From Flavobacterium ginsengisoli (lineage in GTDB: Bacteria > Bacteroidota > Bacteroidia > Flavobacteriales > Flavobacteriaceae): 64,000 nucleotides of DNA. Every line of letters starts with the position of its first letter. Position 1 is the first letter of the stretch. Positions 363-61,077 of this stretch are shown one piece after another. The stretch covers positions 5,190,501 to 5,254,500 of the forward strand of contig NZ_CP121110.1 in assembly GCF_029625315.1 (NCBI RefSeq), given 5' to 3'. Made by a program: the position numbers and the translations under genes. The notes under the pieces are model-generated. The model did not search any database. It worked only from the letters and a program-made list of their open reading frames with translations, and was not told the origin of the DNA.

Positions 363-1437
363 ATGAGTGAAACGGAACGATATAAGAGACAAATTATACT
401 TCCTGAAATTGGAGATATTGGTCAGTACAAATTACTGAAATCTAAAGTTTTGGTAATTGGTGCTGGAGGTTTGGTCGCTTCAATTCTGCCTTATCTAGCT
501 GCTGCAGGAATCGGCGAAATTGGGATTGTAGATGATGATCTTATTGAAGTTTCCAATCTTCATAGACAAGTAATTTATAAAACTTCGGCGGTTGGAAAAA
601 GAAAAGTTATAGAAGCAAAAGCAATGCTTTCAGAACTGAATCCGGAAGTGAAAGTGAATGTTTTTGAAGAAAAATTATCTGGAAAAAATGCAATTTCATT
701 GTTCGAAAAATACGATATTATTGTTGATGCAACAGACAATATTTCGATAAAATACTTAATTAATGATGCTTGTCTAGTGAGCAATAAACCAATGGTTTAC
801 GGATCTATTTTTAGATTCCAAGGACAAGTTTCAGTTTTCAATTATCAATACGGACCAACTTACAGATGTTTGTATCCTGATGAAAATTCGAATGCGGCAA
901 ATTGTGAAGATGCTGGCGTAATTGGAGTTTCCGTTGGAATTATCGGAATGTTTCAGGCCAATGAAGTTCTAAAAATAATTCTTGGAGTTGGTGAAGTTTT
1001 GAGTGGAAAAATTCTGGTTTATACTATTTTAAATAACGAACAGCAGAAGTATGATTTCGAAAAGAGTTCAAAATTAGAAATGAACAAAGAAGATTTCGAA
1101 CAGAAATACAATTCATCTGAAAATCAGATTGAAGAAGTAAAATTTGAATTTCTTTTGAATGAAATAGAAAACGATGAGGTTCTTTTTTTAGATGTTCGAA
1201 ATGAAGATGAAGCGCCAAAAATCAAATTGAAAAATAGTATTCAAATTCCGTTGCTCGCATTTAGAAAATCAAATTAAAAAATTGAATTCAAATCAAACTA
1301 TTTATGTTTTTTGCCAATCTGGAATTAGAAGCAAAATTGCGGCCGAATTGCTTCAAAAATATCAATTTAAAAATATAAAAAGCATTGCTGGAGGCGCTTT
1401 AGCAATGAAGCAGTTATTACAAGAAATAAAAATATAA
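363..1437 (+). CDS. moeB: MoeB-type adenylyltransferase with rhodanese domain (one-base frameshift)
   Basis: This ThiF/MoeB-family E1-like enzyme activates the MoaD C-terminus. The start is ATG 363, preceded by GGAGG. The N-terminal ~240 residues carry the GAGGLVAS nucleotide-binding loop, the D-x-D region (IVDDDLIEVSNLHRQ) and the ATDN motif. A C-terminal rhodanese domain begins near residue 265 (VLFLDVRNEDEA). The frame breaks at GCTCGC 1253-1258. Removing one C restores GCTGC, reads IPLLHLENQ, and opens the frame to TAA 1435-1437 through VFCQSGIRSKIAAELL, which includes the rhodanese active-site Cys. Uncorrected, the reading frame stops at 1277. The usual CxxC zinc motifs of MoeB are only partly visible (CLYP, NCED). 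Confidence 0.88.
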
Positions 1438-1464
1438 TCATAGGTTTTAAAATGTTCGTCTAGT

Positions 1465-1567
1465 TTGTCATTTCGACGAAGGAGAAATCTGCGCGAGTAG
1501 CTCGACAAAGATGGCGAATTACTGTGAGGAGTTCCTTGCGAAGATTTCTCCTTCGTCGAAATGACAA
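1465..1567. repeat. Intergenic palindrome, GTCATTTCGACGAAGG family
   Basis: Perfect 26-bp inverted arms (1465-1490 and 1542-1567) containing GTCATTTCGACGAAGGAG flank a ~50-bp loop. The same element recurs at 17751-17856, 25072-25165 and 26694-26824, with half copies at about 4036-4061 and 50449-50478. It lies between moeB and moaE, and could form a long hairpin in the operon transcript. It carries no coding sequence. Confidence 0.85.
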
Positions 1568-1579
1568 TATTGAGTTTTA

Positions 1580-1650
1580 ATTCGTGAAAATTCGTGTAAT
1601 TCGTGGCAAAAGAAAAATCATTTTAATCCATATAATCTGTGGCAAAAAAA
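1580..1650. repeat. Intergenic 'attcgtg/ctgtggc' repeat
   Basis: AT-rich repeated phrases (aattcgtgtaattcgtggc, tataatctgtggc) match material at 20527-20722, 26829-26865, 30660-30745 and 33713-33958. An open frame runs through it into moaE, but the repeat origin argues against it being coding, which supports the later ATG at 1662 for moaE. Confidence 0.6.
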
Positions 1651-1661
1651 ACATAAAAAAA

Positions 1662-2093
1662 ATGAGTAAAAATGTATTTGTAGAAGGACCAATTGCTCCT
1701 GAGTTTATTGCAGAATCAATCACTAAACATCAATCAAAACATACGATTGGAGCGCATAATATTTTTCTGGGACAAGTTCGTGCCGATGTTATTCATGATA
1801 ACACAGTCGTAGCAATCGATTATTCGGCCTATAAAGACATGGCAAATGAAGCTTTGTATGCCATTCGCGAAAAGGCCTTTGCCAAATTCGATTTAACTTG
1901 CATGCACATTTACCACAGTTTGGGCGTTGTAAAAGCAGGCGAAATCTGTTTGTTCGTTTTTGTTTCGGCAACGCGTCGCAAACAGGTTTATGAAGCCACA
2001 GAAGCAATTGTAAACTGGATAAAAACCGATGTGCCGATTTTTGGTAAAGAAATGTTTGAAAATGATACATTCACTTGGAAACAAAATACGTAA
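1662..2093 (+). CDS. moaE: Molybdopterin synthase catalytic subunit MoaE
   Basis: MoaE (143 residues from ATG 1662) converts precursor Z to molybdopterin with thiocarboxylated MoaD. Family features seen are HNIFLGQVRAD near residue 32, the YKDMANEAL helix, IYHSLGVVKAGE, VSATRRKQVYEA, and the active-site lysine segment WIKTDVPIFGKE near the C-terminus. I chose ATG 1662 over an upstream in-frame ATG at 1584 because the intervening sequence is an intergenic repeat and the family N-terminus begins here. It lies 9 bp upstream of moaC-moaB. Intact. Confidence 0.93.
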   Translation: MSKNVFVEGPIAPEFIAESITKHQSKHTIGAHNIFLGQVRADVIHDNTVVAIDYSAYKDMANEALYAIREKAFAKFDLTCMHIYHSLGVVKAGEICLFVFVSATRRKQVYEATEAIVNWIKTDVPIFGKEMFENDTFTWKQNT

Positions 2094-2102
2094 GAAATTA
2101 TA

Positions 2103-3016
2103 ATGGTAGATATTACGCATAAAATAAGCACTTTAAGAGTCGCAACAGCAACCGCAATTGTAAAAGTAAGCAAACAAGAAACAATTGATGCTGTTGTCAA
2201 TAATTTAGTGCCAAAAGGAAACGTGTTCGAAATGGCAAAAACTGCAGGATTGTTTGCGGTTAAAAATACGCATTTGTCTATTCCAGATTGTCATCCGCTT
2301 CCAATTGAATATACTGCTGTAGAATACAATATCGAAGGTTTAGATATTCATATTATTTTCAAAGTAAAAACTGTTTACAAAACAGGAGTTGAGGTTGAAG
2401 CCATGCATGGCGCATCGATTGTAGCGCTTACAATGTATGATATGTTAAAGCCAATTGACAAAGAAATCGAAATTTCAACCATCAAATTAATCAATAAAGA
2501 AGGCGGAAAATCGTCTTTTAAAAATAAATTCCCGAATGTAATTAAAGCCGCAGTTTTCGTTTGTTCCGATTCGATTTTTGCAGGTGATAAAGAAGACAGA
2601 TCTGGAAAAACAATAGTAGAAAAATTAGATTCGTACGGAGTTGAAACTTCTCATTACGAGATTATTCCAGATGAATTAGCTATTATTCAGGAAAAAACTA
2701 AGGCTTTCGCCAAAGAAAATCAATTGGTTATTTTTACGGGCGGGACAGGTTTGTCTCCTAGAGATGTTACGCCTGAAGCTTTAGAGCCAATTTTAGAAAG
2801 CAGAATTCCAGGAATTGAAGAAGCAATCCGAAATTATGGACAACAGAGAATGCCTTATGCAATGCTTTCTCGAAGTGTTGCAGGAACTTTAGGCAAAACT
2901 TTGGTTTTGGCTTTGCCGGATCAACAAACGGAGTAAGAGAATCGATGGATGCTGTTTTTCCGCATGTAATGCATGTCTTTCATATTTTAAAAGGAAAAAA
3001 TCATGACAGCCTCTAA
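2103..3016 (+). CDS. moaCB: Bifunctional MoaC-MoaB/Mog Moco biosynthesis fusion (one-base frameshift)
   Basis: This protein fuses cyclic pyranopterin monophosphate synthase (MoaC, residues ~1-150) to a MoaB/MogA molybdopterin adenylyltransferase-like domain (~155-304). MoaC features are LIPDCHPL-type SIPDCHPL and GVEVEAMHGAS. MogA features are VCSDSIFAGDKEDRSG and TGGTGLSPRDVTPEA. The frame breaks at 2917-2919. The family motif LALPGSTNGVRES requires CCGGGATC where the sequence has CCGGATC, so one G is missing. Corrected, the frame continues to TAA 3014-3016 and overlaps moaA by 14 bp. MoaC-MoaB fusions are known in Bacteroidota, so the fusion itself is genuine. Confidence 0.88.
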
Positions 3017-4010
3017 CACTATTTTGACTGATAGTTTCGGGCGCAAGCATAATTATTTGCGCATTTCGCTGTTGGAAAAATGCAACTTGCGTTGTACGTA
3101 TTGCATGCCTGCGGATGGAATCGCTTTATCTCCAAAAGCTAGTTTAATGACGGCAGATGAGATTTTTGCCATTGCCCAGACTTTCGTGAAAAATGGTGTT
3201 GACAAAATACGATTAACAGGCGGTGAACCTTTGCTCAGAAAAGATTTTCCTGAAATTGTGTCTAAATTGTCAGAATTAGAAATTTCACTTTCGATTACTA
3301 CAAACGGAATTTTAATTGACCGCCATATTGAGGTTTTAAAGCGATTTAATATTAAGAAAATCAACTTGAGTTTAGATACCCTAGTTGCTTCAAAATTTCA
3401 TTCTATAACGCTTAGAAATCAGTTTGAGAAAGTAATTGATAATCTGCATTTGCTTTTGAATAACGATTTTCAGGTAAAAGTAAATGTGGTTTTGATAAAA
3501 GGTTTTAATGATACTGAAATTGTAGATTTTGTAAAACTGACTCAATTTCTGCCAATTTCTGTTCGATTTATCGAATTTATGCCGTTTGCTGGAAACGAGT
3601 GGGACAGGAGTAAAATGGTTTCGCGACAAGAAATTTTATCTTTAGTAGAAACTCAATTTTCATCAAAAGAAATTCAAAAATTAGAAGACGAAAAAAACTT
3701 CACTTCAAGAAATTATAAAATAAAAAACTTTCAAGGTGATTTCGGAATTATTAGTTCCATAACAAATCCGTTTTGTGACAGCTGCAATCGCATCCGCTTG
3801 ACGGCTGACGGAAAAATAAAAAACTGCCTTTTCTCAAATTCAGAAACCGATTTACTGACTGCTTTTAGAAATGGAGAATCGATTACTGAGTTAATTTCAG
3901 AATCCATTCAAAACAAAAAGAAAGTTAGAGCAGGAATGTCAACAGTTAATGAAATAAATGATCCAACACTTCATTTTGATAATCGCAGTATGATTGCGAT
4001 TGGAGGTTAG
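3003..4010 (+). CDS. moaA: GTP 3',8-cyclase MoaA
   Basis: MoaA is the radical-SAM enzyme that starts molybdopterin synthesis from GTP. The 335 residues contain the radical-SAM cluster motif CNLRCTYC (C-x3-C-x2-C) near residue 27, the LTGGEPLLRKDF motif, and the second C-terminal [4Fe-4S] motif CDSCNRIRLTADGKIKNC. It ends in the conserved GG that is needed for activity. The start ATG overlaps the corrected end of the moaC-moaB gene, indicating translational coupling. Last gene of the Moco operon, followed by a hairpin at 4085-4115. Intact. Confidence 0.95.
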   Translation: MTASNTILTDSFGRKHNYLRISLLEKCNLRCTYCMPADGIALSPKASLMTADEIFAIAQTFVKNGVDKIRLTGGEPLLRKDFPEIVSKLSELEISLSITTNGILIDRHIEVLKRFNIKKINLSLDTLVASKFHSITLRNQFEKVIDNLHLLLNNDFQVKVNVVLIKGFNDTEIVDFVKLTQFLPISVRFIEFMPFAGNEWDRSKMVSRQEILSLVETQFSSKEIQKLEDEKNFTSRNYKIKNFQGDFGIISSITNPFCDSCNRIRLTADGKIKNCLFSNSETDLLTAFRNGESITELISESIQNKKKVRAGMSTVNEINDPTLHFDNRSMIAIGG

Positions 4011-4084
4011 GTTTCTCGAGAATTCACAAAATATTGTCATTTCTCCTTCCTCGAAATGACAAAACTGTATTTTTAAAAAGAAAA

Positions 4085-4115
4085 AAAGGCTTAACTTTTT
4101 AAAAGTCAAACCTTT
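4085..4115. terminator. Bidirectional terminator hairpin
   Basis: An imperfect stem (AAAGG-TT-ACTTTT paired with AAAAGT-AA-CCTTT) lies flanked by A and T runs, between convergent moaA and the histone-H1-like gene. A half copy of the GTCATTTC repeat precedes it (about 4036-4061). Confidence 0.55.
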
Positions 4116-4124
4116 CTCAGAATA

Positions 4125-4752
4125 CTATTTTTTCTTTTTAGTTTTTGCCTTAGCCTTTTTCTGAGCGACAGCTTTCTTTGCCGCAACTTTTTTAGCTTTA
4201 GCTTTATCTTTTGCTTTTTTAGCTTTTTCTTTTTTCTTCGCAGCTGACTTTTAGTTTCTCTTTTTTAGCTTTTTCTAATTTTTTGATAACTGCTTTAATT
4301 GCTTTTTCTCTTTTCTTATCCTTTTCCTTTTTGGCTTTTAGTTTTGCTTTAAGCTTTGATTTTATATCGTTTTTTTCTTTGCCAATTTTTTCTACAGTGA
4401 CAACAGGTTTGCTTTCTGAAACATCATTGGTTTTAATTTCTACAATTTCAGAAACGATAGGTTCTTTTTTTGCAGGAGTTGCGGCTACTTTTTTTACCGT
4501 TGCTCTTGGGGTAGTTTTAGAAGCCGCTCTTACTGGTGTTTTAGTCGCCGGTTTTACAGTAGCAGCCGGTGCTTTTGCGACTGTAGTTCTTGAGGTAGTC
4601 GCTTTTGCCGCAGGTGCTTTTGTAGCAGTTCTTGTTGTTCTTTTAACCGTTGTCTTAGTTTCTGGTTGTACTTCTGTAGTGGTTTCTACAGCTGTTTCTG
4701 CTGGAGCATCTGTGGTTTTTTCAGCAGAAATCGATGGATTTCTTTTTATCAT
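4125..4752 (-). CDS. Lys/Ala-rich histone-H1-like protein (one-base frameshift)
   Basis: A strongly basic, low-complexity protein of about 208 residues. The N-terminal half is Thr/Ala/Pro/Lys-rich (repeated TTVKRTTRTATKAPAAK-like blocks). The C-terminal half is nearly pure Lys/Ala/Glu, ending in KAKTKKKK, which resembles bacterial H1-like or AlgP-type nucleoid proteins. The uncorrected frame stops at 4219. Removing one base next to GCAGC at 4240-4245 restores KVAAKKKEKAKKA and continues the same Lys/Ala composition to TAG 4125-4127. DNA binding is inferred from composition only. It stands alone between the Moco and nitrate-reductase genes. Confidence 0.7.
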
Positions 4753-4892
4753 AATTGTATTTTTTATTGAGTAAATAGATCTTAACCAAGTGGCTCTAAA
4801 GCTTTTGAAGTATAATGCTTGAACCGAAATTCTTAGTTAAGCTAAATATACGTAATTTTTGAATACAAAACGCGATGCTTTTTTAGAACTCA

Positions 4893-6324
4893 TTAATTTT
4901 CAATTACTTCTAGGATTTTAAAATTGTTTTTTGGTGCTTCGCAAAGAGAACAGCAATAGGTTTCTGGCAAATTTTCAAATAAAAGGCCTTTAGGAATTCC
5001 TTGAGTTTCGTCTCCGTATTCAGAATTATAAAGTGTTAAACATTCCTGACATTGATAGATATCTAATTGCGGTTTTTCTTTTTTCTGCAGTTTTTCAGTT
5101 GCTTCTGAGGTCGAATTTCCAAGTTCTTCAAAGTATTTTCGGCTTAGCTCAATTAAAATTGTCGGAAGTTCCAGTTTATCTATATCTTGAGAATGCACAA
5201 TATATTCTCGTGTATTTGGGTCAAAATTCTTTGCAAACAAAACATTATAGGTATCCCTGATTTTGATGGATTCTAAAGCTGTTGGAAGTTCGTTTTTTTC
5301 GATAATAATCGAAGTGAAATAATGCCCATCACGATTGTATTCTGAAATTCCGAAATTCAATCCATAAGTACTGATATCGAATTGATCTAATGTTCGAACT
5401 AAGAAAGTTTTTAGATTCAAAGCCCATTCTGTTGCTACAGGCAAATGCCAATTTAATTCCAATAAAGAATGACGAACGTTGATACCGCGTTTCCCTAAGA
5501 ATTTTTCCCATTCTAGTTTTCGATCTTTCGGAATTCCTTTTATAATGAAAGATTTCCAAGGAGTGATGCAGATTTTCCCGATTTTGCATTCAAAACATAA
5601 ATCGCACATTTCTTTCAAGAAATCTAAATCGTATAAATTATTTCGCCAATACAATCCTAACCAATATTGATCAATTCCCATTCTGTTCATTCCTTCGTAA
5701 TACGGAAACGGATAAAACGGAATATTCAACGGTTTGTCGATTGTTCTATTGTTGGTATCTAAAGCTTCGCTCACTAAAGCGAAAAGCATTTCTATATCAA
5801 TAAATTCTTCTTCGGAGATTTTCTCAATTTCGTAATAAATCTTGGCCAAATCCCAGCTGTAAAGTAAAACTGGATAGATTTCCATTTTTTCCCATTTTGG
5901 AAGACGAACATATAGATACCAATAATCTTCGTGTTCTGACGCAATAAAATTTAAATGTCCTGTAAACAAAGGAACCAATTGCTCGCTTCGGATCGGTTAT
6001 GTTGACTTTTAGTTTTGGCTGTTCTTTAAATTCTTCCAAAACATATAAAAAACGGTTTCCTGTAAGCCAATTGGTGTTTCTAAAAATATCAGTCGAAACA
6101 TAAGAAGAAACAATATTGTTACCGCTTTTTTGATCTGGATAAACAAAATGATGTTTTCCTAAAGTGGTTTTGTCCAAAGATTTAAATCCTTTCGGAAAAA
6201 TAATATCTTGTCTAGAACCAAACGAAATCGAATCCAAACCTTCTTCCAAAGCGATATTTACAACTTCTTGTAATTCCCCTGGCGAAATAACGCCTCCTTT
6301 TACTATTAATCTTGTTAGTTCCAT
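4893..6324 (-). CDS. Nitrite/sulfite-reductase-like protein with C-terminal rubredoxin domain (one-base frameshift)
   Basis: About 477 residues once a frame break at 5991-5996 is corrected (GCTCGC to GCTGC, reading DPKQQLVPLFTG). The N-terminal part resembles the ferredoxin-like half domain of the NiR/SiR and CobG families (RLIVKGGVISPGELQEVV near the start, ITPWKSFIIKGIP near residue 250). A Cys-rich stretch (CDLCFECKIGKIC) lies before the second motif. The last ~60 residues are a rubredoxin: YQCQECLTLY then YCCSLCEAPK, two CxxC iron ligands. I cannot find the paired C-x5-C and C-x3-C siroheme ligands seen in NirB, so catalysis is doubtful; electron transfer is a better guess. It lies between the nitrate reductase and the Moco genes. 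Confidence 0.72.
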
Positions 6325-6376
6325 TTTTGTTTTTGTTTCAAGTTTCAGGTTTTAAGTCTGCGGATTGTGTTGATTT

Positions 6377-6567
6377 AAACGCAAAGAGCGCAAAGTTTTT
6401 TCGCAAAGTTTTTTAAGGTTTATATGCTGTGCGTAAAATTGTTTTCTATCGAAAAAAGTTCGCAAAGCAATACTTTGATTTTTTTTCAAAGCTTTGCGAA
6501 TTTTGCCTCCTTAGTTAAGGATAAACTAAATATACTTTGCGAAAAAACTTTGCGCTCTTTGCGTTAA
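6377..6567. repeat. Long inverted repeat with 'cgcaaagagcgcaaag' arms
   Basis: The arm at 6377-6408 (aacgcaaagagcgcaaag then ttttttcgcaaag) is inverted at 6536-6567, with further GCAAAG phrases between. It fills the 286-bp gap between the nitrate reductase stop and the rubredoxin-protein start. No gene is seen here. Related 'cgcaaagg' phrases occur at 26630-26680 and 26868-26901. Confidence 0.7.
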
Positions 6568-6610
6568 AATTTATGTTTAAAGTAATACAACAAGCAACAT
6601 AAGCTGAAAA

Positions 6611-9600
6611 CTATTTACATTTTGCCAATATTTCCTTTACCTCTGTTTTGCAGCTTCCGCATCCTAAACCTGCGCCCGTATTTTTGCATAATTCGGTGAA
6701 ATCGTTCACGCCGCTTTTAATGGTTTCTTCAATGTTTCCAGCTCCAACTTGACTGCATGAACAAACTAATTTTCCTAAAACTGGTTTTGCATTTGAGCTT
6801 CCTCTCAAAAGCGTATTTCGTTTGTCTGATAGTTCGATTTTGCTTTCAATCATCGTTTTGAATTCGGCAAACTCATTTTTATCTCCCATTAAAATGGCAC
6901 CAACCAAAAGATCATCTTTTACGATGCATTTTTTGTAATAGCGTTTCTTTAAATCGGTAAAAACAATTTCTTCGTACGAATCGTCATTTTCTGGGATGGT
7001 AAGATCGCCAATACTGCAAAGATTAATGTCTTCTAATTTCAAAATATTCATTAAAATCGAACCTTTGTAATAACTGCTAATATCACCAGCAAGGAAATTT
7101 GCAAGAATATTAGCTTGTTCTTCGGCAGCAGAAGTGATTCCGAAAAGTTTGTTTTCGAATTCTGCTATTTCTCCAATGGCAAAAATATCTGGATTTGAAG
7201 TTTGTAAATACTGATTTACTTTCACGCCACGTCCGCAAGCTAATCCGCTTTCGCGTGCAATTTCAATATTCGGAATTGTTCCAATTGTATATACAATTGC
7301 ATTTGCAGTAATGATTTTTCCGCTTTTTAAAGCAATTTCGATTTCGTTTGGATTATCAGTTTCAAAAACAGTGCTGACTTCATTATCAAAATAAATCTGA
7401 ATGTCTCTAAGTTGCACTTCTTCAGCCAATAATTTACTTGAAATTCGGTCTAACTGACGCTCCATCAAACGCGAAGCGCGCTGAATAATCGTTGTTTTTA
7501 CTTTTTTATGTTTTAAAGCTGCGGCTAATTCCAATCCTAATAATCCGCCGCCGATAATGACAACGTGCTGTTCTTCTGGGGGAAGATTGGTACTGGCTAA
7601 ATGTTTTTTCAAACGATCAGCATCTTCTTTTCGTCTAACGGTAAAACGTCCAGGAAGATGAAGCTGTGCATTTTCGGGAACGAAAGGACGGCTTCCAGTT
7701 GCCATAATCAACGAATCGAAAGTGTGAATTTCGCCTTGACTATCTATAATTGTTTTTTGTTTTGGATCTATTTTATCAATAGAAACTCCTGCTTTCATGG
7801 TGATTTTTAGTTTATTGAAAGTTTCACCATCTTTAACTTTTAAAAGCTGTTCCCAAGTGAATTCTCCCGTCATGTATTCAGGCAACAAAACACGATTGTA
7901 AAACGGATTTACTTCATTCGAAAAAACAATAATTTCATCGGTTGAATTGAATTCACGATAGTTTTGAATGAATCGGAAAGAAGCCGCTCCAGCACCAACA
8001 ATCGCAATTTTCTGAAATGGTTTTACGTATTTTTTAATTGAAACTGTTGTGAACTTAAAGTCAGGTTCTTTTGAAATTGGATCAACAACCGTATTCGTTA
8101 AATTGTTGGTTCGATTTAAATCATTTTCAAGTTGTTTTCCCCAGTGCATCGGCAGAAAAAGAACTTTTTCTTTGATTGTATCGGTGACTTTCGCTTTTAC
8201 GCGAACTTCTCCATTTTTACTTGAAACTACGACAATATCACCATTTTTAATATCGTTTTTAAAAGCATCAATAGGATTTATTTCTAAAACAGGACTTGGA
8301 ATATGTGTTAGTAATCTAGATACTTTTCCAGTTTTTGTCATCGTATGCCATTGATCTCGAATTCTTCCTGTTGTTAAAATAAAAGGGAATTCATCATTTG
8401 GCTGAACTGATGTATTTTCGATAGAAACTGGCAGATTAAAAATTGCTTTTCCAGATGGCGTATAGAATTTTTTATCTGTAAACAATCTTGGAGTTCCTGG
8501 ATGATTATAATCTGGAACTGGCCATTGAAAAGTGCCTTCAGTTTTTAAACGATTATAATTTAAGAATGAAATATCAATATTAGTATTTTTTGTAAGTGCA
8601 CAATGTTCTTTGTAAACTTCTTCGGCACTGTTGAAATTGAATCCGTTGAAATTCATTTTTTTAGCAAAACGAATTAAGATTTCAATATCAGGAAGTGCTT
8701 CTCCAGGTGCATTGATTCCTTTTGGAAGATAGGAAATACGACGTTCCGAATTGGTCATCGTTCCTTCTTTTTCTAACCAACCCGCAGCAGGCAATAATAA
8801 GTCGGCAAATTTGGCTGTATCTGCATTATGCGAAATATCTTGAACGACTACAAATTTAGCGTTTTGAAGCGCTTTTTCGGCTCTTCTAGAATCGGGTAAA
8901 CTCACTAGCGGATTCGTGCAAATAATCCAAACCGCTTTCATTTTTCCTGATTCTAAAGCTTCAAACATTTCCGTCGCTGTTAAACCTGGTTTATCTGAAA
9001 TCTCATCAACACCCCAAAAATCTGCCACTTCTTTGCGATGTGTAGGGTTTGCAATGTCTTTATGTGTTGCCAAAAGTGTTGCCATTCCACCAACTTCGCG
9101 TCCGCCCATTGCATTGGGTTGACCTGTTAATGAAAATGGCCCAGAACCTGGTTTTCCAACTTGTCCTGTTAATAAAGATAAATTTAGCAAAGCCGTATTT
9201 TTATCAACTCCAACGGCACTTTGATTTAATCCCATTGCCCAAAGCGAGATAAATCCTTTTGCTTTTCCAATAAGATCAGCGGCAAGTTTGATGTCGTTTA
9301 CAGAAATTCCACAAAGTTTTGAGGCTTTTTCAAGTGAAGTTCCTAAAACTAAGTCTTTGTATTGTTTGAAATTTTCAGCATTATTTTTTACAAAATCATG
9401 ATCTACATAACCTTTCTCGATAATTCGTCTAGCGATAGCATGATATAAAATAATATCTGAACCCGGAATAATCTGCAAATGTAAATCGGAGAATACGGCA
9501 GTATCTGTTCGTCTTGGATCTATGCAGATTATTTTAGTTTTCGGATTTTTCTCTTTGTGTTTTTCCAATCTTCTGAAAAGAATAGGGTGGCACCAAGCAG

Positions 9601-10126: not shown

Positions 10127-10166
10127 CGTTTCTCGGTTTTAAATAAATCACTTACTTAAGTTGAGA

Positions 10167-10174
10167 CAAAAATA
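10167..10174 (-). promoter_or_regulatory. Candidate -7 box of the nitrate reductase promoter
   Basis: Reading toward the reductase the sequence is TATTTTTG, matching the Bacteroidota -7 consensus TAnnTTTG. The inverted repeat at 10184-10199 sits directly upstream, where the -33 element would be expected. Confidence 0.45.
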
Positions 10175-10183
10175 AGTATTTTT

Positions 10184-10199
10184 TAAGTATTAATACTTA
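10184..10199. promoter_or_regulatory. Palindromic operator TAAGT-N6-ACTTA (nitrate reductase / crp intergenic)
   Basis: TAAGTATTAATACTTA is a perfect inverted repeat (the symmetry extends one base each side, 10183-10200) in the divergent promoter region between the nitrate reductase and the Crp/Fnr-type regulator. The same 5-N6-5 arrangement occurs upstream of narK (16854-16869) and nirB (24005-24020). This half-site spacing is that of CRP-family sites, and also fits the NarL 7-2-7 geometry. Confidence 0.7.
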
Positions 10200-10281
10200 A
10201 TTTTTGGTTTATTTTTTTACTTTTGATAAAAAGAAATGAGGAACAACAAATTAGTTTTGAATGTGCTAAAAATTAGAACTC

Positions 10282-10986: not shown

Positions 10987-10987
10987 T

Positions 10988-11742: not shown

Positions 11743-11750
11743 TATATTTT

Positions 11751-50478: not shown

Positions 50479-50483
50479 TGTGT

Positions 50484-51197
50484 TTAATTAGAAACTTCAT
50501 TAAAGAAAACAACACTATGACAAGCCACAACCGCCGCTGTTTCTGTTCTTAAACGCGTATTTCCTAAAGTTACAGGTTTGTAATTGTTTTCTATTGCCAA
50601 TGCAATTTCCTTTTCAGAAAAATCGCCTTCTGGGCCAATTAAAATCGTAACATCTTCATTTGGTTTTAAAACCTCTTTTAGTGACTTTTTATCCGTTTCT
50701 TCGCAATGCGCAATTAATTGTAAGCCATTTTGTTTTTGTTTAATGAACTCTTTATAAGAAACAGCTTCATTTAATTTTGGAAGAAATGTTTCGTTGCATT
50801 GTTTCATTGCTGATAAAATGATTTTTTCGAAACGATCACGATTAATTACTTTTCGTTCAGAACGATCACAGAAAATAGGTGTAATTTCTTGAATGCCAAT
50901 TTCAGTTGCTTTTTCTAAAAACCATTCAAAACGATCATTCATTTTAGTTGGCGCGACAGCCAAATGCAAATGAAATTTTGGCTTTTCGGCATTTTTTATA
51001 GAAAGTACTTCAACGGTACATTTATTATCTGAAGCCAGAGTAATCTGAGTTTCAAATAATAATCCAAAACCATTGGTAACATGCAGAATATCTGAATCTT
51101 TTTTTCGAAGAACTTTTATAATATGACGGCTTTCTTCTTTATCAAAAGAAAAACTTTCGGTTGTTTCGTCTATATTCGGATTAAAAAATAACTGCAT
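50484..51197 (-). CDS. rsmE: 16S rRNA (uracil1498-N3)-methyltransferase RsmE
   Basis: A 237-residue SPOUT methyltransferase with an N-terminal PUA-like part (QLFFNPNIDETTESFSFDKEESRHIIKVLR) and the C-terminal knot: RSERKVINRDRFEKIILSAMKQ, ILIGPEGDFSEKEI and LGNTRLRTETAAVVA. These are classic RsmE motifs. It modifies U1498 of the ribosomal small subunit. Two bp downstream of tsaD; operonic. Intact. Confidence 0.94.
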   Translation of the reverse strand: MQLFFNPNIDETTESFSFDKEESRHIIKVLRKKDSDILHVTNGFGLLFETQITLASDNKCTVEVLSIKNAEKPKFHLHLAVAPTKMNDRFEWFLEKATEIGIQEITPIFCDRSERKVINRDRFEKIILSAMKQCNETFLPKLNEAVSYKEFIKQKQNGLQLIAHCEETDKKSLKEVLKPNEDVTILIGPEGDFSEKEIALAIENNYKPVTLGNTRLRTETAAVVACHSVVFFNEVSN

Positions 51198-51199
51198 GA

Positions 51200-52222
51200 T
51201 TAAAATTCGATTCTTGCTTTAGAAACTACAGCAGAAGTTTCAAAACGATTAGATAAGTATTTTTGGTATCCTACAATTCCAATCATTGCAAGATTATCTG
51301 TTGTATATTCAAATTTCGGAATAAAAGTTTTCCAACCGTATTTGCTTTCAGTTTCTTTTAAAGTTGCTCTGATTCCAGAATTTGCCGAAACTCCTCCGCC
51401 AATAGCAATTTGAGTAATTCCAGTTTCTTTTACAGCCAATTTTATTTTATCCATCAAAATTTCGATAATGGTGTGTTGAATAGAAGCGCAAATATCATTT
51501 AGATTTTCTTCAATAAAATTTGGATTCTGCTGTTTGTTTTTTTGAATGAAATACAAAATAGCTGTTTTCAATCCTGAGAAACTAAAATCTAATCCCGGAA
51601 CTTTAGGTTTTGTGAAAGGAAAGGCTTTCGGATTTCCTTCTTTCGCATATTTATCAATCAAAGGTCCACCAGGATAAGGAAGTCCAAGAATTTTTGCGCT
51701 TTTATCGAATGCTTCACCAACAGCATCATCTGTAGTTTCTCCAATGATTTCCATATCAAAAAAACTATTCACTTTTACAATTTGAGTATGTCCACCACTG
51801 ATTGTTAAGGCTAAAAATGGAAATTCTGGTTTGTCATAGCCTTCTTCATCAATAAAATGAGCTAGAATATGAGCATGCATGTGATTTACAGCAATTAGAG
51901 GCACGTTTAAGGCTAACGATAATGATTTACTGAAAGAAGTTCCCACCAATAGAGAGCCCATCAATCCTGGCCCTTGCGTAAATGCGATTGCGCTTAGCTG
52001 TTCTTTTTGTACATTTGCTTTGCGAAGTGCGGCATCTATCACTGGAACAATATTCTGCTGATGCGCGCGTGAGGCCAATTCTGGAACTACGCCTCCATAT
52101 TGGTTGTGAATTAATTGATTGGCTACAACATTTGACAATACTTTGTCGTTATGTAAAACCGCGGCAGCAGTATCATCGCATGAACTTTCGATGGCTAGAA
52201 TAAAAACCTCTGGATTTTGCAT
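51200..52222 (-). CDS. tsaD: tRNA N6-threonylcarbamoyladenosine transferase TsaD
   Basis: A 340-residue ASKHA ATPase-like enzyme from ATG 52222 (MQNPEVFILAIESSCDDTAA). Seen are the metal ligands in HMHAHI, the GGGVSAN motif, and GPGLMGSLLVG. It adds threonylcarbamoyl to A37 of ANN-decoding tRNAs and is normally essential. The start at 52255 would add a non-conserved lead, so 52222 is preferred. First gene of an operon with rsmE, DUF4159 and trmH genes. Intact. Confidence 0.95.
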   Translation of the reverse strand: MQNPEVFILAIESSCDDTAAAVLHNDKVLSNVVANQLIHNQYGGVVPELASRAHQQNIVPVIDAALRKANVQKEQLSAIAFTQGPGLMGSLLVGTSFSKSLSLALNVPLIAVNHMHAHILAHFIDEEGYDKPEFPFLALTISGGHTQIVKVNSFFDMEIIGETTDDAVGEAFDKSAKILGLPYPGGPLIDKYAKEGNPKAFPFTKPKVPGLDFSFSGLKTAILYFIQKNKQQNPNFIEENLNDICASIQHTIIEILMDKIKLAVKETGITQIAIGGGVSANSGIRATLKETESKYGWKTFIPKFEYTTDNLAMIGIVGYQKYLSNRFETSAVVSKARIEF

Positions 52223-52332
52223 ATAAAGGCACAAATTTTGAATTATATTTGACAAATCAAATTATTAAATTTCTTTGATTTAAGCAGTGCCCCAAAATTA
52301 AAGAATTTTTATCAAAAACAGCTGTTCTTTGT

Positions 52333-55300
52333 CTGTTCAAAATAAATTTAAAAGAAACTAAAATTAAAGAAGCTATCAAAAAAGTAAAGAAAATAATATC
52401 ACGAACCCTAATTGGGTTGATTTTACTTTTGTTAGCGCTTGCTATCATACTATCTCTTCCTGTCGTTCAGACACAGATTGCTAATTATGTTACCAACCGA
52501 TTAAACGAAGATTACAAGGTTAATATTAATGTCGAAAAAACGGCAATCAACATTTTTGGTGGAGTAAAATTGAAGAAAGTAACGATTTTAGATCATCATA
52601 AAAAAACGATGATTTATTCGGATATTATTACTACCGATATTGCCAGTTTCAGCAGACTGTTAGATGGAGATTTGATTTTTGGAGATTTACGTTTGACAGG
52701 CTTGATTTTTAATCTGAAAACTTATAAAGGCGAAGACGAGAACAATATCAATAAGTTTATACAAGCTTTTGAAGTTGAAGATACACCTAAGAAAAAATCA
52801 ACAAAGCATTTTTTGCTGACGGCTAAAAATGGTTATATAGAAAAAGGAAGATTTTCTGTTATTGATGAAAATAAAACGACTCCAAAGTTTCTAGATTTTA
52901 CAAAATTAAACGCTTATATCAGCGAGTTTAAATTGTATGGGCCAGATGTAAATACAAACATTCACCGATTTTCGTTTATGGATCACCGTGGTTTGTATGT
53001 TTCTAATTTTGCAGGGAAATTTAGTTATACCAAAAAACAGATTATAGTCGAAAATCTGGCTATTAAAACCAAAAGATCTTCCATTTACGGTGTGGCAATT
53101 CTAAATTACAAGCCTTCAGATTTTCTGGATTTTACAGATAAAGTTCGATTTGATGTGTTGATAGATTCTTCTTCTATTGCAACAAACGATATTCGTCATT
53201 TTTACGATGGTTTAGGCAAAAACCAGCATTTTAAGCTAAAAACAAAACTAGACGGTCCGCTTAATAACATGCTGTTAACAAGGTTAAGATTAAGTGATAC
53301 AAATGGGTCAAAAATTAACGGAACAATTAATTTTAGAAATCTTTTTAGGCAGTAAAGACCAGAAGTTTTCTATGGATGGAAAATTTGACAAGTTGCTTTC
53401 TAGCTATGATGATCTAGTGGTGCTACTTCCTGAGGTTTTAGGAAAAAGGCTTCCGAAAGAAATGAAAAAAATCGGTAAGTTTAATATTGTTGGAAAAGCA
53501 AAAGTTTCGACTACAGCCTTAGAAACAGATTTTAAAATGGCAACCGATCTTGGGAATGGACAAGTCGATCTTCATATGAATAATATGGATTTTATTGATA
53601 AAGCTTCCTACTCTGGAAATATCATTTTGACAAACTTTGATGTTGGTGCTGTTTTAAGCCGAAAAGATATTGGCAGAACTACTTTGAATCTAGATGTGGA
53701 TGGAGTTGGTTTTACTGAAAAATATTTGAATACTGTTATAAAAGGAGACATTTCGAAATTAGATTACAATAAATACACCTATAATAATATAGTAGTAAAC
53801 GGAAATTTTAAGCTTCCTTATTATAAAGGGCAAATTGCTATTAATGATCCTAACTTGAATTTAAGTTTTGATGGTTTGCTAGATTTGAGCAAAAAAGAAA
53901 ATCGTTATGATTTCCATATCAATGTCGAAAATTCGGATTTGCGAAAACTTAAATTTGTTGGCGATTCGATTTCTCATTTTAAAGGCGATGTTGTCGTTCA
54001 GCTATCTGGAAATTCTATTGAAAATCTGCAGGGTGATATTTTTATTAATGATGCAGAATATCAAAATCCAAAATCGACTTATGTTTTTGATCAAGTAAAT
54101 CTGAATTCAAGTTTTGATGCTGATCGTTTGAGAACGATTACCATCAGTTCAAATGATGTTGTCGACGGAAAAATTGTGGGTAAATTTAGATTTGATCAAT
54201 TAAATAAATTGGTCATGAATTCAGTTGGTAGTTTGTACACCAACTATAAACCTTACAAAGTTAAAAAAGGACAGTTTTTAAATTTCAATTTCCGTGTTTA
54301 TGATAAAGTGGTCGAAATGCTTTATCCAGAAATTAATATTGATTCGTCTACAGTTGTTAGAGGGAAAATAGATTCTGATTTACAAGAGTTTAAATTCCGT
54401 TTCAGATCTAAAAAAATCACGGCTGATAAAAATACATTTGATAACATCCGTATTAATATTGACAATAAGAATCCGCTTTATAATGCTTATGTTGAGTTAG
54501 ACAGTATAAAAACACCTTATTATAAAATACGAGATTTTAATTTGATTAATGTTACCGCAAATGATACTCTTTATGTGCGTTCGGAGTTTAAAGGAGGAAA
54601 TGAAGGTGAGGATTACTTTAATCTAGATTTGTATCATACCATTGATAAGAATAAAAATAATATTATCGGAATCAAGAAATCTGAAATGAAGTTTAAAGAC
54701 TATCTGTGGTACTTAAATGAAAATGCTGAAAAAGATAATCAGATTATAGTTGATCAGTACTTTAAAAATTTCTCATTTGATAATATTGTTTTATCTCACG
54801 AAAACCAAAAAATTGATCTAAACGGAGTTATAAAAGGCACCGATTATAAAGATCTGGTCCTCACTTTTGAAGATGTTGATATTAATAAAATTACACCGGT
54901 AAATTCCAAATTTGTATTTGATGGTAATTTGAATGGAAATGTGAACTATAAGCAGAATAAAAATGTTTATCAGCCCACGGCATCCATTAAAATTGACCAT
55001 CTTGTGATGAATAAGACGGAATTGGGTACGCTTAATTTTGATATTTCGGGAGATGAGAATTTTAAGAAATTCACAGTTAATTCATCGATCCAAAATGGCT
55101 TTACCGAATCGTTTCGAGCCAACGGAACTTTTGCTATTGAGAATAAAGAAACAATCATGGATATGAGCTTGAAGCTGGAAGGTTTCAATTTGGCTACATT
55201 AGGAACTATAGGAGGTGATGTTATCTCTAATGTTAGAGGTTCTGTTTCTGGAAACGCGGCTGTTATTGGAAATTTGAAAAAACCTGAAATCAATGGACGT

Positions 55301-56954
55301 TTGTATGTTGAGAAAGCAGGAATGACAATTCCGTATCTAAATACTGATTATGAACTGAGTGATCGAACCGTAATTGATTTAACTAACGAAAAATTCTTGT
55401 TTAGAAATAATCAGTTGACTGATACTAAATATGGGACAAAGGGTTTGCTGAACGGAAGTATCGAGCATAATAATTTTGGTGATTGGAAATTAGATTTAAA
55501 TGTTACTTCTAAACGATTAGTTGCATTGGACACAAAGGACAGTGAAGATGCTCGCATATTTTGGAACAGCCTTTATAAATGGATCTGCTAGTATAAAAGG
55601 TCCTGTTGAAGCTCTTTTTATTAAAGTAGATGCAAAATCTGAAAAAGGTACTGAGGTTAAGATTCCAATCAATAACACGCAAAGTGTTGGAGAAAGTAGC
55701 TGGATTCATTTTGTGACGCCAAAAGAGAAGTACAATCTAGCTAATGGAATTGTTGAGAAAACAAGAGATTATAACGGACTTGAACTGGAATTTGATTTTG
55801 ATATTACACCAGATGCCGAAGTAGAAGTTATTCTAGATCGAAATTCTGGTCATGGTATGAAAGGAAAAGGATACGGATCGCTTTTGTTTAAAATTAATAC
55901 ATTGGGTAAATTCAATATGTGGGGAGATTTCCAGGCATATGAAGGAACTTATAACTTTAAATATGGCGGACTTATCGATAAAAAGTTTACGGTTAAAAAA
56001 GGTGGTTCGATTATTTGGGAAGGAAACCCGATGCGTGCTCAGTTAAATTTGGAAGCAGTTTACAAAACCCAAGCCAATCCGGCAGTACTTTTAGATAATA
56101 CTTCTTCATTTAATAAAAAAGTTCCTGTAGAGGTCGTTATCGGATTGAGAGGAGATTTGGCGAGTCCAGAACCAAATTTTGATATTCAATTCCCTTCTGT
56201 GAGTAATGTTTTAAAATCGGAAATACAATATAAGCTTGATGACAAAGATATTCGCCAGACGCAGGCACTCTATCTGCTGTCGACAGGTTCGTTTATGAGT
56301 ACTGACGGATTTAGTCAGGGAGATTTCTCTGGAACATTAACAGAAACGGCTTCAAGTTTATTAGGAGGGATTATCAAATCAGATAATGATAAAGTAAATA
56401 TTGACTTAAATTATATCGCCGCAGATAGAAGGACAGGGCAGGAGGTTGATGGTCAGTTTGTGGCCAATATATCGTCTCAGGTAAATGAACGAATTACGAT
56501 TAATGGTAAATTGGGAGTTCCTGTTGGTGGTGTAAATGAATCTGCAATTGTTGGAGATATTGAGATTTTATATCGTGTAAATGAAGATGGAACAATGAAT
56601 CTCCGTTTATTCAATAAGGAAAATGATATTAATTACATAGGACAAGGAATTGGTTATACACAAGGAGTCGGTATTTCTTATGAAGTAGATTTTGATACCT
56701 TTAGCGAGCTTGTAAATAAGTTATTTAAAAGCCATAAAATAGAAAAAGCTGTAAAAGGTTCTTCTGCCGATCAAATGCAGGATTCTTATCTAAATCCGGA
56801 TTACATGAATTTTACAAGTAAAAAAGATTCGGAAAAGAATAAGAAGAAAGCAAAAGAAGATGAGGAGAAAAGAAAGAAAGAAGAAGAAAAGAAGAAAAAA
56901 GAACAGCAGGCACCAACTAATAATCAAGGATTGATTCCAGATAACGATTATTAA
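52333..56954 (+). CDS. tamB: Translocation/assembly module TamB (two frameshifts, start uncertain)
   Basis: About 1540 residues. A Lys-rich N-terminus (KEAIKKVKKIISR) and one membrane anchor (LIGLILLLLALAIILSLPVV) are followed by long beta-strand AsmA/TamB repeats and the C-terminal TamB (DUF490) domain with a Lys/Glu-rich tail. Two frame breaks: near 53345-53354 (IFLGS against FRNLFRQ), and at GCTCGC 55550-55555, which restored to GCTGC reads DSEDAAYFGTAFINGSASI. No ATG exists between the tsaD start and the anchor; the CTG at 52333 is the best in-frame start, and TTG 52417 is the other. TamB acts with TamA in outer-membrane assembly or lipid transport. Confidence 0.88.
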
Positions 56955-56980
56955 CACTTTGTTAAAAATCGGCATTTATA

Positions 56981-57004
56981 AAACCATTATTCTCATAATG
57001 GTTT
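56981..57004 (+). terminator. Terminator hairpin after tamB
   Basis: AAACCATTAT / ATAATGGTTT stem followed by a T7 run. The rest of the gap to pfkA (57005-57262) is AT-rich with no clear promoter match. Confidence 0.8.
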
Positions 57005-57262
57005 TTTTGTGCTAAATTTAGGCACTCTAATAAAATTTTCCATGTGAGCAGGAAATTCTGATTTTTATAACACTTCATCAGGGTATTGTTAATTTTGACG
57101 ATTTAATTAAAAAAATAGCGTTTTATTATTTTTAATGAAATTTTTTCCTAGAAAAAACTTATTAACGAAAACGTTTGAATTTAACAGATTTTATTAATTT
57201 ATGATAATCGTAACCCGAAAAGTGCTGAATGTTTGCTAATTTTACACTTTAATACTTAAATA

Positions 57263-58250
57263 ATGCCAAAAACAATAAAAAAAGTAGGTGTTCTTACCTC
57301 AGGAGGAGATTCACCTGGAATGAATGCTCGCAATACGATCAGTTGTTCGAACTTGCGCATACCATAATATAGAATGCATCGGAATTTATAGAGGGTATCA
57401 AGGAATGATTGAAGGAGACTTCAAGGAGATGGGACCACGTAGCGTAAATAATATTGTAAACAAAGGTGGAACGATCTTGAAATCGGCTCGTTCAGTTGAG
57501 TTTAGAACCCCTGAAGGTAGAAAAAAAGCACACGACAACCTTGTTAAGGCAGGTGTTGATGCTTTGGTTGTTATTGGTGGTGATGGTAGTTTTACTGGAG
57601 GATTAATTTTTAATTCAGAATTTGATTTCCCAGTTATGGGAATTCCAGGTACAATCGATAATGATATTTATGGTACAAGTTTTACTTTAGGGTATGATAC
57701 TGCTTTAAATACTGTTGTAGACTGTATTGATAAAATTAGAGACACTGCAAGTTCTCATAACCGTCTTTTCTTTGTAGAGGTTATGGGTAGAGATGCAGGT
57801 CATATTGCTCTTAATGCAGGTATTGGTGCAGGAGCAGAAGAAATTCTTATTCCTGAAGAAGATCTAGGTTTAGATCGTCTTTTAGATTCGCTTCAAAAAA
57901 GTAAAGCGTCAGGAAAATCATCTAGTATTGTTGTAATTGCTGAAGGAGATAAAATTGGTAAAAACGTATTCGAATTAAAAGATTATGTTGAAGCTAATTT
58001 GCCAGAATACGATGTGCGTGTTTCGGTGTTAGGACACATGCAACGTGGTGGTTCTCCATCTTGTTTTGACCGTGTTTTAGCAAGCCGTTTAGGAGTTAAA
58101 GCTGTAGAATCTTTAATTGAAGGAAAATCGAACTATATGGTTGGACTTCGTGAAGATAAAGTAATCTTAACACCACTTGAGCAAGCTATTAAAGGTAAAT
58201 CAGAAATTGATAGAGAATTGTTAAGAGTGTCTGACATCATGTCGACATAA
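57263..58250 (+). CDS. pfkA: 6-phosphofructokinase PfkA (one-base frameshift)
   Basis: About 328 residues. The start ATG 57263 gives MPKTIKKVGVLTSGGDSPGM. The frame breaks at GCTCGC 57326-57331; restoring GCTGC reads GMNAAIRSVVRTCAYHN and joins the rest. Motifs are VIGGDGSFTGG, PGTIDNDIYGTSFTLG with catalytic Asp, EVMGRDAGHIA and VLGHMQRGGSPSCFDR. It makes fructose-1,6-bisphosphate from fructose-6-phosphate and ATP. Followed 93 bp later by gapA, an unusual glycolytic pairing that likely forms one operon. Confidence 0.93.
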
Positions 58251-58319
58251 CCAATATAAAGTTTAAAAAAGAAAGAGAAGTTTATTGTGAGGAAATTAGA
58301 CTTTGAATTAGTGTAATAA

Positions 58320-59349
<1,030 letters not shown>

Positions 59350-59365
59350 TAATATATATTTTTGC

Positions 59366-59396
59366 AAAATCCCGTTACTTATAATAACGGGATTTT
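59366..59396 (+). terminator. Terminator hairpin after gapA
   Basis: AAAATCCCGTTA / TAACGGGATTTT stem with a T-rich tail, 17 bp after the gapA stop. Confidence 0.85.
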
Positions 59397-59478
59397 CTTA
59401 TTTTGTTACCTCTATAATTAATGTAAAAAACACACTTTTAAATTAAAAATAGAAAACCTAATTCCAAAAACTAAACAA

Positions 59479-60330
59479 ATGAAATTAATAGTTGATAGTG
59501 GATCTACTAAAGCCGATTGGATTGCGATAGATGATAATGGAAAAGTATTATTCACAACACAAACTTTAGGATTAAATCCTGAAATTCTAGACGAGCCAGA
59601 AATCATTGAAAGATTAAATGACCGTTTTGATATCTTACAAAACAAAAAAAATGCTACACATTTATTCTTTTATGGTGCCGGATGTGGTACTGATAGAATG
59701 AAAGAGTGGTTAAAAAGAATTTTCCAAGAGTATTTTTCTAACGCAATTGTAGACGTTCAAGAAGATACTTATGCGGCAGTATATGCAACAACTCCAAAAG
59801 GACAAGAAGCTATAGTTTCGATCTTAGGAACAGGTTCTAATTGCAGTTACTTTGATGGAAAAGTGTTGCATCAAAAAGTACAATCATTAGGTTACATCGT
59901 AATGGATGATTGTAGCGGTAACGTTTTTGGAAAAGAATTAATTAGAAAATACTATTTTAATAAAATGCCTAAAGAATTGGCTGTTGAACTTGAAAAAGAG
60001 TACGACGTTGATCCAGATTTTATTAAAAACAAATTATATAAAGAGCCAAATCCTAATGCTTATTTAGCTACTTATGCTAAATTCTTAATTAAGCATAAAG
60101 ATACTGAGTTCTGCAGAAAAATCATTTTCAAAGGAATGAAGTCTTTTGTTAAAAATTACATCAAACAATTCGATAACTGCAAAGAAGTTCCAGTACATTT
60201 TGTTGGTTCTATTGCATTTTATTTGAAAGATGAATTGCAAGAGACATTTAATAAATATGAACTTCAATTAGGGAATGTTTTAAGAAGACCTATTGATGGA
60301 TTAATTGCTTACCATGTCGCTAATCAATAG
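59479..60330 (+). CDS. N-acetylglucosamine kinase-like BadF/BadG/BcrA/BcrD family ATPase
   Basis: A 283-residue ASKHA kinase of the GlcNAc-kinase type: phosphate-1 motif IVDSGSTKADWIAID at residue 4, phosphate-2 SILGTGSNCSYF near 115, and DCSGNVFGKELI. The N-terminus starts cleanly at ATG 59479 with the first motif. It likely phosphorylates N-acetylglucosamine or muropeptide-derived sugars. Ten bp before mgsA, on the same strand, so cotranscribed. Intact. Confidence 0.86.
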   Translation: MKLIVDSGSTKADWIAIDDNGKVLFTTQTLGLNPEILDEPEIIERLNDRFDILQNKKNATHLFFYGAGCGTDRMKEWLKRIFQEYFSNAIVDVQEDTYAAVYATTPKGQEAIVSILGTGSNCSYFDGKVLHQKVQSLGYIVMDDCSGNVFGKELIRKYYFNKMPKELAVELEKEYDVDPDFIKNKLYKEPNPNAYLATYAKFLIKHKDTEFCRKIIFKGMKSFVKNYIKQFDNCKEVPVHFVGSIAFYLKDELQETFNKYELQLGNVLRRPIDGLIAYHVANQ

Positions 60331-60340
60331 TTCTGGTTTT

Positions 60341-60715
60341 ATGGAAATTGCCATTATTGCTCATGATGGAAAAAAAGCAGATTTAATTGATTTCTTAATC
60401 AAAAATGAAGCTGTTTTACACAATGAAAAAATAAGGCTTATTGGTACTGGTACTACTGGAGGAAAAGCAGAAGCTGCTGGATTTAAAACTCAGAGAATGC
60501 TTTCTGGACCTCTTGGAGGCGATGCGCAAATTGCAGGAAGAGTTGCGGAAGGAATTACGCAGATGGTTTTCTTTTTTAAAGATCCCTTGTCAAGTCATCC
60601 GCATGAAGCAGATATTAACATGCTAATTCGCGTTTGCGATGTGCATAATGTGCCGCTGGCAACCAATGAAGCAACGGCACAATTATTATTAGATGCTATT
60701 GCACAGCAATTATAG
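60341..60715 (+). CDS. mgsA: Methylglyoxal synthase MgsA
   Basis: A 124-residue enzyme from ATG 60341 (MEIAIIAHDGKKADLIDFL). Seen are the phosphate loop TGTTG, the catalytic Asp region GPLGGDAQIAGRV and the conserved His pair in SSHPHEADI. It converts dihydroxyacetone phosphate to methylglyoxal, an overflow from glycolysis, whose genes lie just upstream. The longer start at 60305 lies inside the kinase gene and is rejected. Its end overlaps the ridA end by 20 bp on the opposite strand. Intact. Confidence 0.94.
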   Translation: MEIAIIAHDGKKADLIDFLIKNEAVLHNEKIRLIGTGTTGGKAEAAGFKTQRMLSGPLGGDAQIAGRVAEGITQMVFFFKDPLSSHPHEADINMLIRVCDVHNVPLATNEATAQLLLDAIAQQL

Positions 60716-61077
60716 AAATTTCTACATTAACATTTTTTGGCAAACATGCCACTTGAACCGTTTCACGAGCTGGAGCGGTTTTTTCGTTAAAATAAGATCC
60801 GTAAACGGTATTTATTGCTCCAAAGTTGTTCATGTCCATAATGAAGATTGTTGACTTTACAACGTTCTCAAAAGTCATATTTGCAGCTTCAAGAATAGCG
60901 AGCAATGTTTTTCATCACTTGATCGGTCTCGTCGTTAATATTGTCTGTAATCAATTCTCCTGACTCAGGATTGATTGCAATTTGTCCAGAGGCATAAAGT
61001 GTGTTTCCAGACAATACGGCTTGATTATACGGTCCGATTGGAGCCGGAGCTTTCTCGGTAAAGATGATTTTTTTCAT
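60696..61077 (-). CDS. ridA: RidA-family reactive intermediate deaminase (one-base frameshift)
   Basis: About 126 residues. The N-terminus IIFTEKAPAPIGPYNQAVL with GPYNQA, the central ASGQIAINPESGEL and the C-terminal VYGSYFNEKTAPARETVQVACLPKN with catalytic Arg give a full RidA. The frame breaks at GCGAGC 60898-60903; restoring GCAGC (GCTGC on the gene strand) reads VMKNIAAILEAANMT. It deaminates reactive enamine intermediates. Last 20 bp overlap mgsA. Confidence 0.93.

Follow-up and report, generated by a model that had tools for sequence, protein, structure and literature searches.

Extra bases at GCWGC motifs in a Flavobacterium ginsengisoli assembly: a probable imprint of cytosine methylation on the consensus sequence

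The stretch of DNA analysed here, which we call the window, comprises 64,000 nucleotides of the genome of Flavobacterium ginsengisoli (G000:C1:5190501-5254500, where G000 is that genome, held in one contig of 5.41 Mb), and its closest named relatives are Flavobacterium. Its genes are repeatedly broken by single extra bases in or beside the pentamer GCWGC (that is, GCAGC or GCTGC), and our subject is the origin of these bases. As reference we used contig C30 of Flavobacterium sp. IB48, another isolate that genome search places in the same species as F. ginsengisoli; it was found by a search with a window protein, and the node and coverage tags in its contig names look like those of a short-read assembly. 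The two sequences are 98.97% identical across 21 kb, with 96-99% identity in the alignment blocks used for counts. Long-piece alignment covers window positions 1-11750 and 13394-64000. The intervening stretch (11751-13393) holds an open reading frame (ORF) of 526 amino acids and has no long-piece alignment to IB48, which points to a strain-specific insertion or loss.

Aligned to IB48, the window has 19 one-base insertions in or beside GCWGC. Seventeen of these had been listed as frameshifts by an initial annotation made from the letters alone, and each proves to be a one-base insertion relative to IB48; the other two, at 6357 and 48029, were absent from that list. On the forward strand the form GCTCGC, a GCWGC with one added base, occurs at 1253-1258 (insertion at 1256), 5981-5986 (extra base 5984), 28994-28999 (28997), 55550-55555 (55553) and 57326-57331 (57329), with GCTTGC at 58977-58982 (58980) and GCGAGC at 60898-60903 (60900). 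GCAGAC stands at 15609-15614 (15613), 23517-23522 (23521), 32275-32280 (32279), 36794-36799 (36798) and 44171-44176 (44175), GTCTGC at the two added sites, 6356-6361 and 48028-48033, and GCAAGC at 33522-33527 (33526 as aligned) and 46633-46638 (46636). Also on this strand, GCAGCTGAC at 4240-4248 has 4247 as its extra base, at a place where GCAGC and GCTGC overlap in IB48, and two insertions lie directly outside an intact pentamer: the extra A at 47264 of GCTGCAAA (47258-47265), next to GCTGC, and the last base of GCAGCA (49305-49310, extra base 49310). Sixteen of the seventeen hexamers had been placed exactly; the one in the 'rubredoxin' gene (gene names at broken sites are those of the initial annotation) lies at 5981-5986 and not at 5991-5996.

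The extra bases were found in none of the relatives' loci that we compared, and IB48 lacks all 19. The comparison drew on 94 loci (not as many separate genomes; IB48 is among them, twice at some sites), with up to 87 loci per site; at the nine sites from 1256 to 33526 IB48 was the sole relative compared. Over the 19 sites there were 558 locus-by-site comparisons, in which the relative was exactly one base shorter 516 times, never of equal length, and of some other net difference 42 times, 41 of these 42 belonging to two variable positions, 44175 and 48029. Insertions are only part of the pattern. When each IB48 GCWGC site is scored with its flanks, a tally that for this reason differs from the count of 19 events, the 82 sites in the window divide into 37 intact, 27 altered without change of length and 18 lengthened; an example of in-place alteration is 46570-46574, where IB48 has GCWGC and the window GCGAC. 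Across these 27 altered sites the window form was found in 3 of 760 comparisons with relatives other than IB48, GCWGC in 230 and another sequence in 527, while 13 of the 27 had no such relative for comparison. Some of the 27 will be true strain differences: at 53273 and 53424 GCWGC occurs in 0 of 78 loci and the changes fall outside the stereotyped forms described below, so these two may be of that kind.

The association with GCWGC extends far beyond the window. The comparison was widened to 464 kb of the F. ginsengisoli genome (the window among them) and 490 kb of IB48 contig C30, and gave 418,611 bases of clean alignment containing 244 one-base insertions or deletions. With homopolymers (three or more identical bases) set aside, there were 126 one-base insertions, and 112 of them lie in GCWGC footprints, which make up 0.93% of the sequence and would be expected to hold 1.17 (P ~2e-210). 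The 572 GCWGC sites of IB48 in this region correspond to 249 that are intact in F. ginsengisoli, 203 altered at the same length, 117 that are one base longer and three that are two bases longer; hence 323 (56%) are changed, 120 of the 572 are lengthened, and in-place alterations outnumber insertions. The number of GCWGC pentamers in the aligned sequence falls from 585 to 292, making it the most depleted pentamer by z score, whereas ten other pentamers without CCGG are 87-96% intact. The forms of change are stereotyped. Written as GCAGC, the 203 altered sites include 91 GCGAC, 38 GCGGC and 24 GCAAC, and the 117 sites that are one base longer include the simple forms GCAAGC (31), GCGAGC (27) and GCAGAC (26), the other 33 being rarer or mixed, from which it follows that it is mostly the AG pair of GCAGC that is affected.

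Counting frameshifts per pentamer against controls, a check proposed by the initial annotation, bears out this specificity: insertions fall within the motif at 108 of 572 GCWGC sites and at 10 of 5243 sites of nine control pentamers, which are altered in 3.9-9.8% of cases, mostly through strain difference. The next pentamer that does not overlap GCWGC is GCCGC, with 4 insertions in 239 sites; these GCSGC sites (S being G or C) show a small excess over the nine controls (P 0.0025; a set of seven chosen controls, 5/4341, had given P 7e-4 before the omitted GCAAC, 4/739, and CGAGC, 1/163, were added), and 2 of 31 carried an insertion in a second region. The effect recurs in every one of the ten 50-kb bins into which the first region was divided and in this second region of 80 kb, with 63,722 clean bases under different filters, where 34 of 79 GCWGC sites are changed (25 altered, 9 lengthened) and 10 of 16 non-homopolymer insertions are at GCWGC. 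In all, 544 kb of the F. ginsengisoli genome, about 10%, was sampled.

As the initial annotation had stated, the effect is partial, with 44 intact GCWGC matches left in the window, and a dependence on neighbouring bases helps to account for this. Change depends chiefly on the two bases 3' of GCAGC; by the next base it affects 67% of sites before A, 55% before T, 42% before C and 39% before G, and where A stands on both sides 77 of 91 sites are changed. A model of the flanks predicts any change with a cross-validated area under the receiver operating characteristic curve (AUC) of 0.80, and insertion alone with 0.66. Such dependence matches what is expected of a basecalling error that recurs in most reads. 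Of indirect relevance are the long A/T runs: the 103 runs of at least eight bases in the clean alignment show 39 one-base deletions and no one-base insertion, a shortening that is nanopore-like.

That the extra bases are errors of reading and not decay of the genes is strongly supported, by the relatives that lack them and by an insertion rate that is the same inside and outside genes, and in this the initial annotation judged correctly. With coding sequence defined by a simple call of ORFs of at least 100 amino acids, insertions occur at 115 of 549 coding and 5 of 23 non-coding GCWGC sites (P = 1), which is unlike real mutations; away from GCWGC only 58 of 129 one-base insertions or deletions are coding, though 89% of the sequence is, and genes are evidently avoided. 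A GCWGC-linked insertion is present in 88 of 368 ORFs.

A second and weaker footprint, of deletions, is found at CCGG, which accounts for 12 of the 20 deletions of a single G or C. CCGG is shortened at 8 of 209 sites, compared with 1 of 1602 for GGCC, CGCG, GCGC and CTAG combined (P 2e-7), and in the second region at 1 of 27; CCCGG is shortened at 7 of 40, so a short run of C or G may help. Two cases lie in the window and were absent from the initial list: a one-base deletion relative to IB48 at CCGG at 2916-2919, within an ORF at 2103-2936, and another at 31223-31226, where IB48 reads CCGG.

The search for methyltransferase genes that the initial annotation had suggested returned two matches to the cytosine-C5 profile PF00145 in F. 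ginsengisoli and two in IB48. The first F. ginsengisoli gene (L098:1306-2481) is followed by one for an RE_HpaII endonuclease (2478-3629; PF09561, 1.5e-93), a family that cuts CCGG, and the CCGG deletions fit this restriction-modification locus as their source. The second (G000:C1:4007468-4008451, 328 amino acids) lies outside the window beside a gene for a Vsr mismatch endonuclease, a linkage seen at this F. ginsengisoli locus only; genes farther out look ordinary by eye. It matches its profiles over their full length (PF00145, 8.6e-85; TIGR00675, 1.8e-90), and P74 C75, E113 N114 V115 and G296 N297, which we take to be the C5 methyltransferase catalytic motifs, are invariant in an alignment of six sequences. 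As the other C5 gene is paired with an HpaII-type endonuclease, elimination leaves the Vsr-linked protein as the candidate, and likely, enzyme for GCWGC. Its homologues add little to this, since the best 120 of 7991 scored bear generic names only, the best solved structures are of HhaI type, and PADLOC ranks general methyltransferase models first; homologues of at least 66% identity occur in 29 of the 299 Flavobacterium genomes searched, F. ginsengisoli and its same-species genome included. As for other families, F. ginsengisoli has no match to PF01555 or PF02086 (N4-methylcytosine, m4C, and D12 adenine methyltransferases, respectively), two weak matches to PF02384, which by eye resemble PrmC-type and small-molecule methyltransferases, and two to PF07669, one above and one (242 amino acids) below the cut-off. 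IB48 has PF01555 and strong PF02384 matches (L101, L147, L149, L151) that were not found in F. ginsengisoli, so that restriction-modification content seems not to be the same in both strains.

Both the motif and the type of error have precedents. GCWGC was put forward by the initial annotation as a methyltransferase target, and it is indeed a known target of 5-methylcytosine (m5C) enzymes (PMC6791906, PMC8936443, PMC8557920). In Listeria monocytogenes of sequence type 87, nanopore genomes were of low quality, with errors centred on GCAGC in four strains that have the mza methyltransferase system, and quality rose after amplification; the authors tie the motif to M.BatI (PMC10687267). The pentamer is the same as ours, the errors there likewise persist after polishing, and GCSGC is among the modified sites; F. 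ginsengisoli differs in belonging to another phylum and in having bases added at 120 of 572 sites, by which genes are broken. The principle is shared with Klebsiella, where Dcm sites (CCWGG), a motif outside the training of the basecaller, account for most consensus errors of nanopore assemblies, though motif and organism are different (PMC6591954). M.BatI itself, a C5 methyltransferase of a Bacillus anthracis prophage, modifies GCWGC on both strands and GCSGC on one (PMC8936443). Its target resembles the F. ginsengisoli footprint, where GCWGC is the main motif and the faint GCSGC excess is compatible with a similar side activity, although few sites are involved; M.BatI is a prophage gene, however, while the Flavobacterium candidate adjoins vsr. 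A parallel of method is Cthe_1749 of Clostridium thermocellum, which the same logic of elimination linked to m5C at GCWGC, with methylation measured by bisulfite sequencing (PMC6791906), where we proceed from errors. In the open-licence PMC literature, PMC10687267 was the sole report of nanopore errors at GCAGC or GCWGC that we found, and we recognised none on Flavobacterium.

We therefore read the frameshifts as errors that m5C at GCWGC caused when native DNA was sequenced by nanopore and that stayed uncorrected in the consensus, and we put the probability of this explanation at roughly 0.88, the odds of each explanation having been judged singly and not scaled to total one. The reads almost certainly came from an Oxford Nanopore platform, with too little short-read correction, and m5C and the Vsr-linked protein are, we infer, most likely the mark and its maker. 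In the mechanism that we propose, the cell would methylate a cytosine in GCWGC, and the modified base would shift the current across neighbouring bases, in a context for which the basecaller was not trained on this mark. The AG purine pair of GCAGC would then suffer the same misreading in the majority of reads, such that the mistake would stay in the consensus; AG could become GA, GG or AA in place, or a purine could be added (GCGAGC, GCAAGC, GCAGAC), which would shift the frame. The flanking bases would largely decide which GCWGC sites are hit. The Vsr-linked C5 methyltransferase would mark GCWGC, and the C5 enzyme paired with the HpaII-type endonuclease would leave the CCGG deletions. The initial annotation had already suspected a base-modification footprint, and this part of it gains indirect support from a motif known for m5C, two C5 matches and the Listeria precedent; what it missed were two of the insertions, the in-place alterations and CCGG.

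Several points weigh against this explanation. The Listeria errors are mainly mismatches, and the 7-306 insertions and deletions per genome are not the cause of low quality there (PMC10687267), while insertions are prominent here. Part of the 203 in-place alterations are true strain differences, at the level set by the control pentamers, and the second region is hit less than the first (43% against 56%), under filters that differed. Any change, as opposed to insertion, is commoner at non-coding sites (20 of 23) than at coding ones (303 of 549; P 0.002), an excess that arises through in-place alterations and may stem from flanks rich in A and T, from true substitutions or from a correction that took account of the frame. 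The assignment of the enzyme is by elimination across five Pfam families only, and a comparison meant to tie its recognition domain to a characterised GCWGC enzyme yielded 27% identity, with large gaps, to the longer of two phage phi3T methylases. Finally, three Flavobacterium genomes that carry a 94-95% identical enzyme and are 89-91% identical to IB48 have no insertions at 86, 78 and 78 GCWGC sites in the 80 kb compared, from which it follows that, on whatever platforms these genomes were read, the enzyme alone is insufficient.

One of these three (G223, about 4.0 Mb in one contig, with a completeness of 70% and a 95% identical enzyme) had been considered as a second affected assembly, and was rejected as such given its 0 insertions at 86 sites. 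Window positions 42001-62000 find no long match in it, which makes missing sequence the likelier cause of its low completeness, and it is possibly an assembly that lacks part of the chromosome. In none of the three does the loss of GCWGC outpace that of neighbouring pentamers. A further observation from the window concerns a dispersed repeat of about 105 bases (1458-1572 and 17725-17858), which has dozens of matches in IB48, in both orientations, and resembles a palindromic element of the repetitive extragenic palindromic (REP) type.

The alternative that survives best, though we think it unlikely, retains a modification as the cause of error but attributes it to another mark or another enzyme: m4C, N6-methyladenine (m6A) at the adenine of GCAGC, or a modification not yet described. 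There is a precedent in M.AbaBS3I, which in Chloroflexi makes m4C at GCWGC (PMC6329791); the training of basecallers is said to cover 5mC and other marks, which could favour a rarer one (PMC10687267); and the errors hit A and G, not C. The gene content of F. ginsengisoli points the other way, with no match to PF01555 or PF02086, only weak ones to PF02384 and PF07669, and two C5 enzymes; the CCGG footprint also suits a C5 enzyme, and the m5C enzymes cited above already have this target.

We give a still lower probability to errors that need no modification, GCWGC being intrinsically difficult for the basecaller used. This would agree with the success of the flanks in predicting change (AUC 0.80), but pentamers that resemble the motif are barely touched by insertions (GCAGG 0/485, CCAGC 0/469, GCATC 0/697, GCAAC 4/739), and the second C5 enzyme is matched by a second motif. 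It also sits badly with Listeria, where the good genomes lack the methyltransferase system that the four strains with GCAGC errors have in common, and where amplification improved the poor genomes (PMC10687267).

Real mutations, whether as gene decay or as a hotspot at methylated sites that perhaps acts through Vsr repair, are very improbable. Methylated cytosines are mutable, and the vsr gene does adjoin the methyltransferase; nevertheless the insertions do not shun coding sequence, 88 of 368 ORFs would be hit, the changes are mainly at A and G of GCAGC and are not C to T, and the three genomes with 94-95% identical enzymes show no insertions. We reject decay and hotspot on the coding and non-coding insertion rates and on the relatives. 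That the extra bases are real and bypassed by programmed frameshifting or editing is suggested only by the like breakage of many frames and can be dismissed, given the same per-site rate outside genes, the in-place alterations and a same-species assembly that lacks the bases.

The F. ginsengisoli assembly thus adds an example to a familiar class of artefact, with a heavier load of insertions than in the published case and with a candidate enzyme for each of two motifs. With about one fifth of GCWGC sites lengthened and another third altered in frame, predicted proteins are widely affected: 166 of 368 ORFs of at least 100 amino acids in the IB48 stretch match a changed GCWGC site in F. ginsengisoli, some of these changes being true strain differences. 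If the sample is typical, a rate of 120 lengthened sites per 418,611 bases extrapolates to some 1,500 such extra bases in the 5.41-Mb genome. Consequently, neither the number of pseudogenes nor the distances to relatives, nor perhaps the completeness of the assembly (95.5% despite its single contig), should be taken as biology. The same footprint is nonetheless useful, for it hints at the motifs that are methylated in the cell and points to a candidate enzyme. We lean slightly towards a wider view, in which a finished long-read assembly set against one accurate relative would record the methylome of its strain, each C5 methyltransferase leaving its own motif and form of error (GCWGC showing insertions and swaps of AG to GA, CCGG showing deletions); the Vsr-linked protein would then be a GCWGC enzyme weakly active on GCSGC, and the target motifs of uncharacterised methyltransferases could be sought in publicly available genomes that were sequenced by nanopore only.

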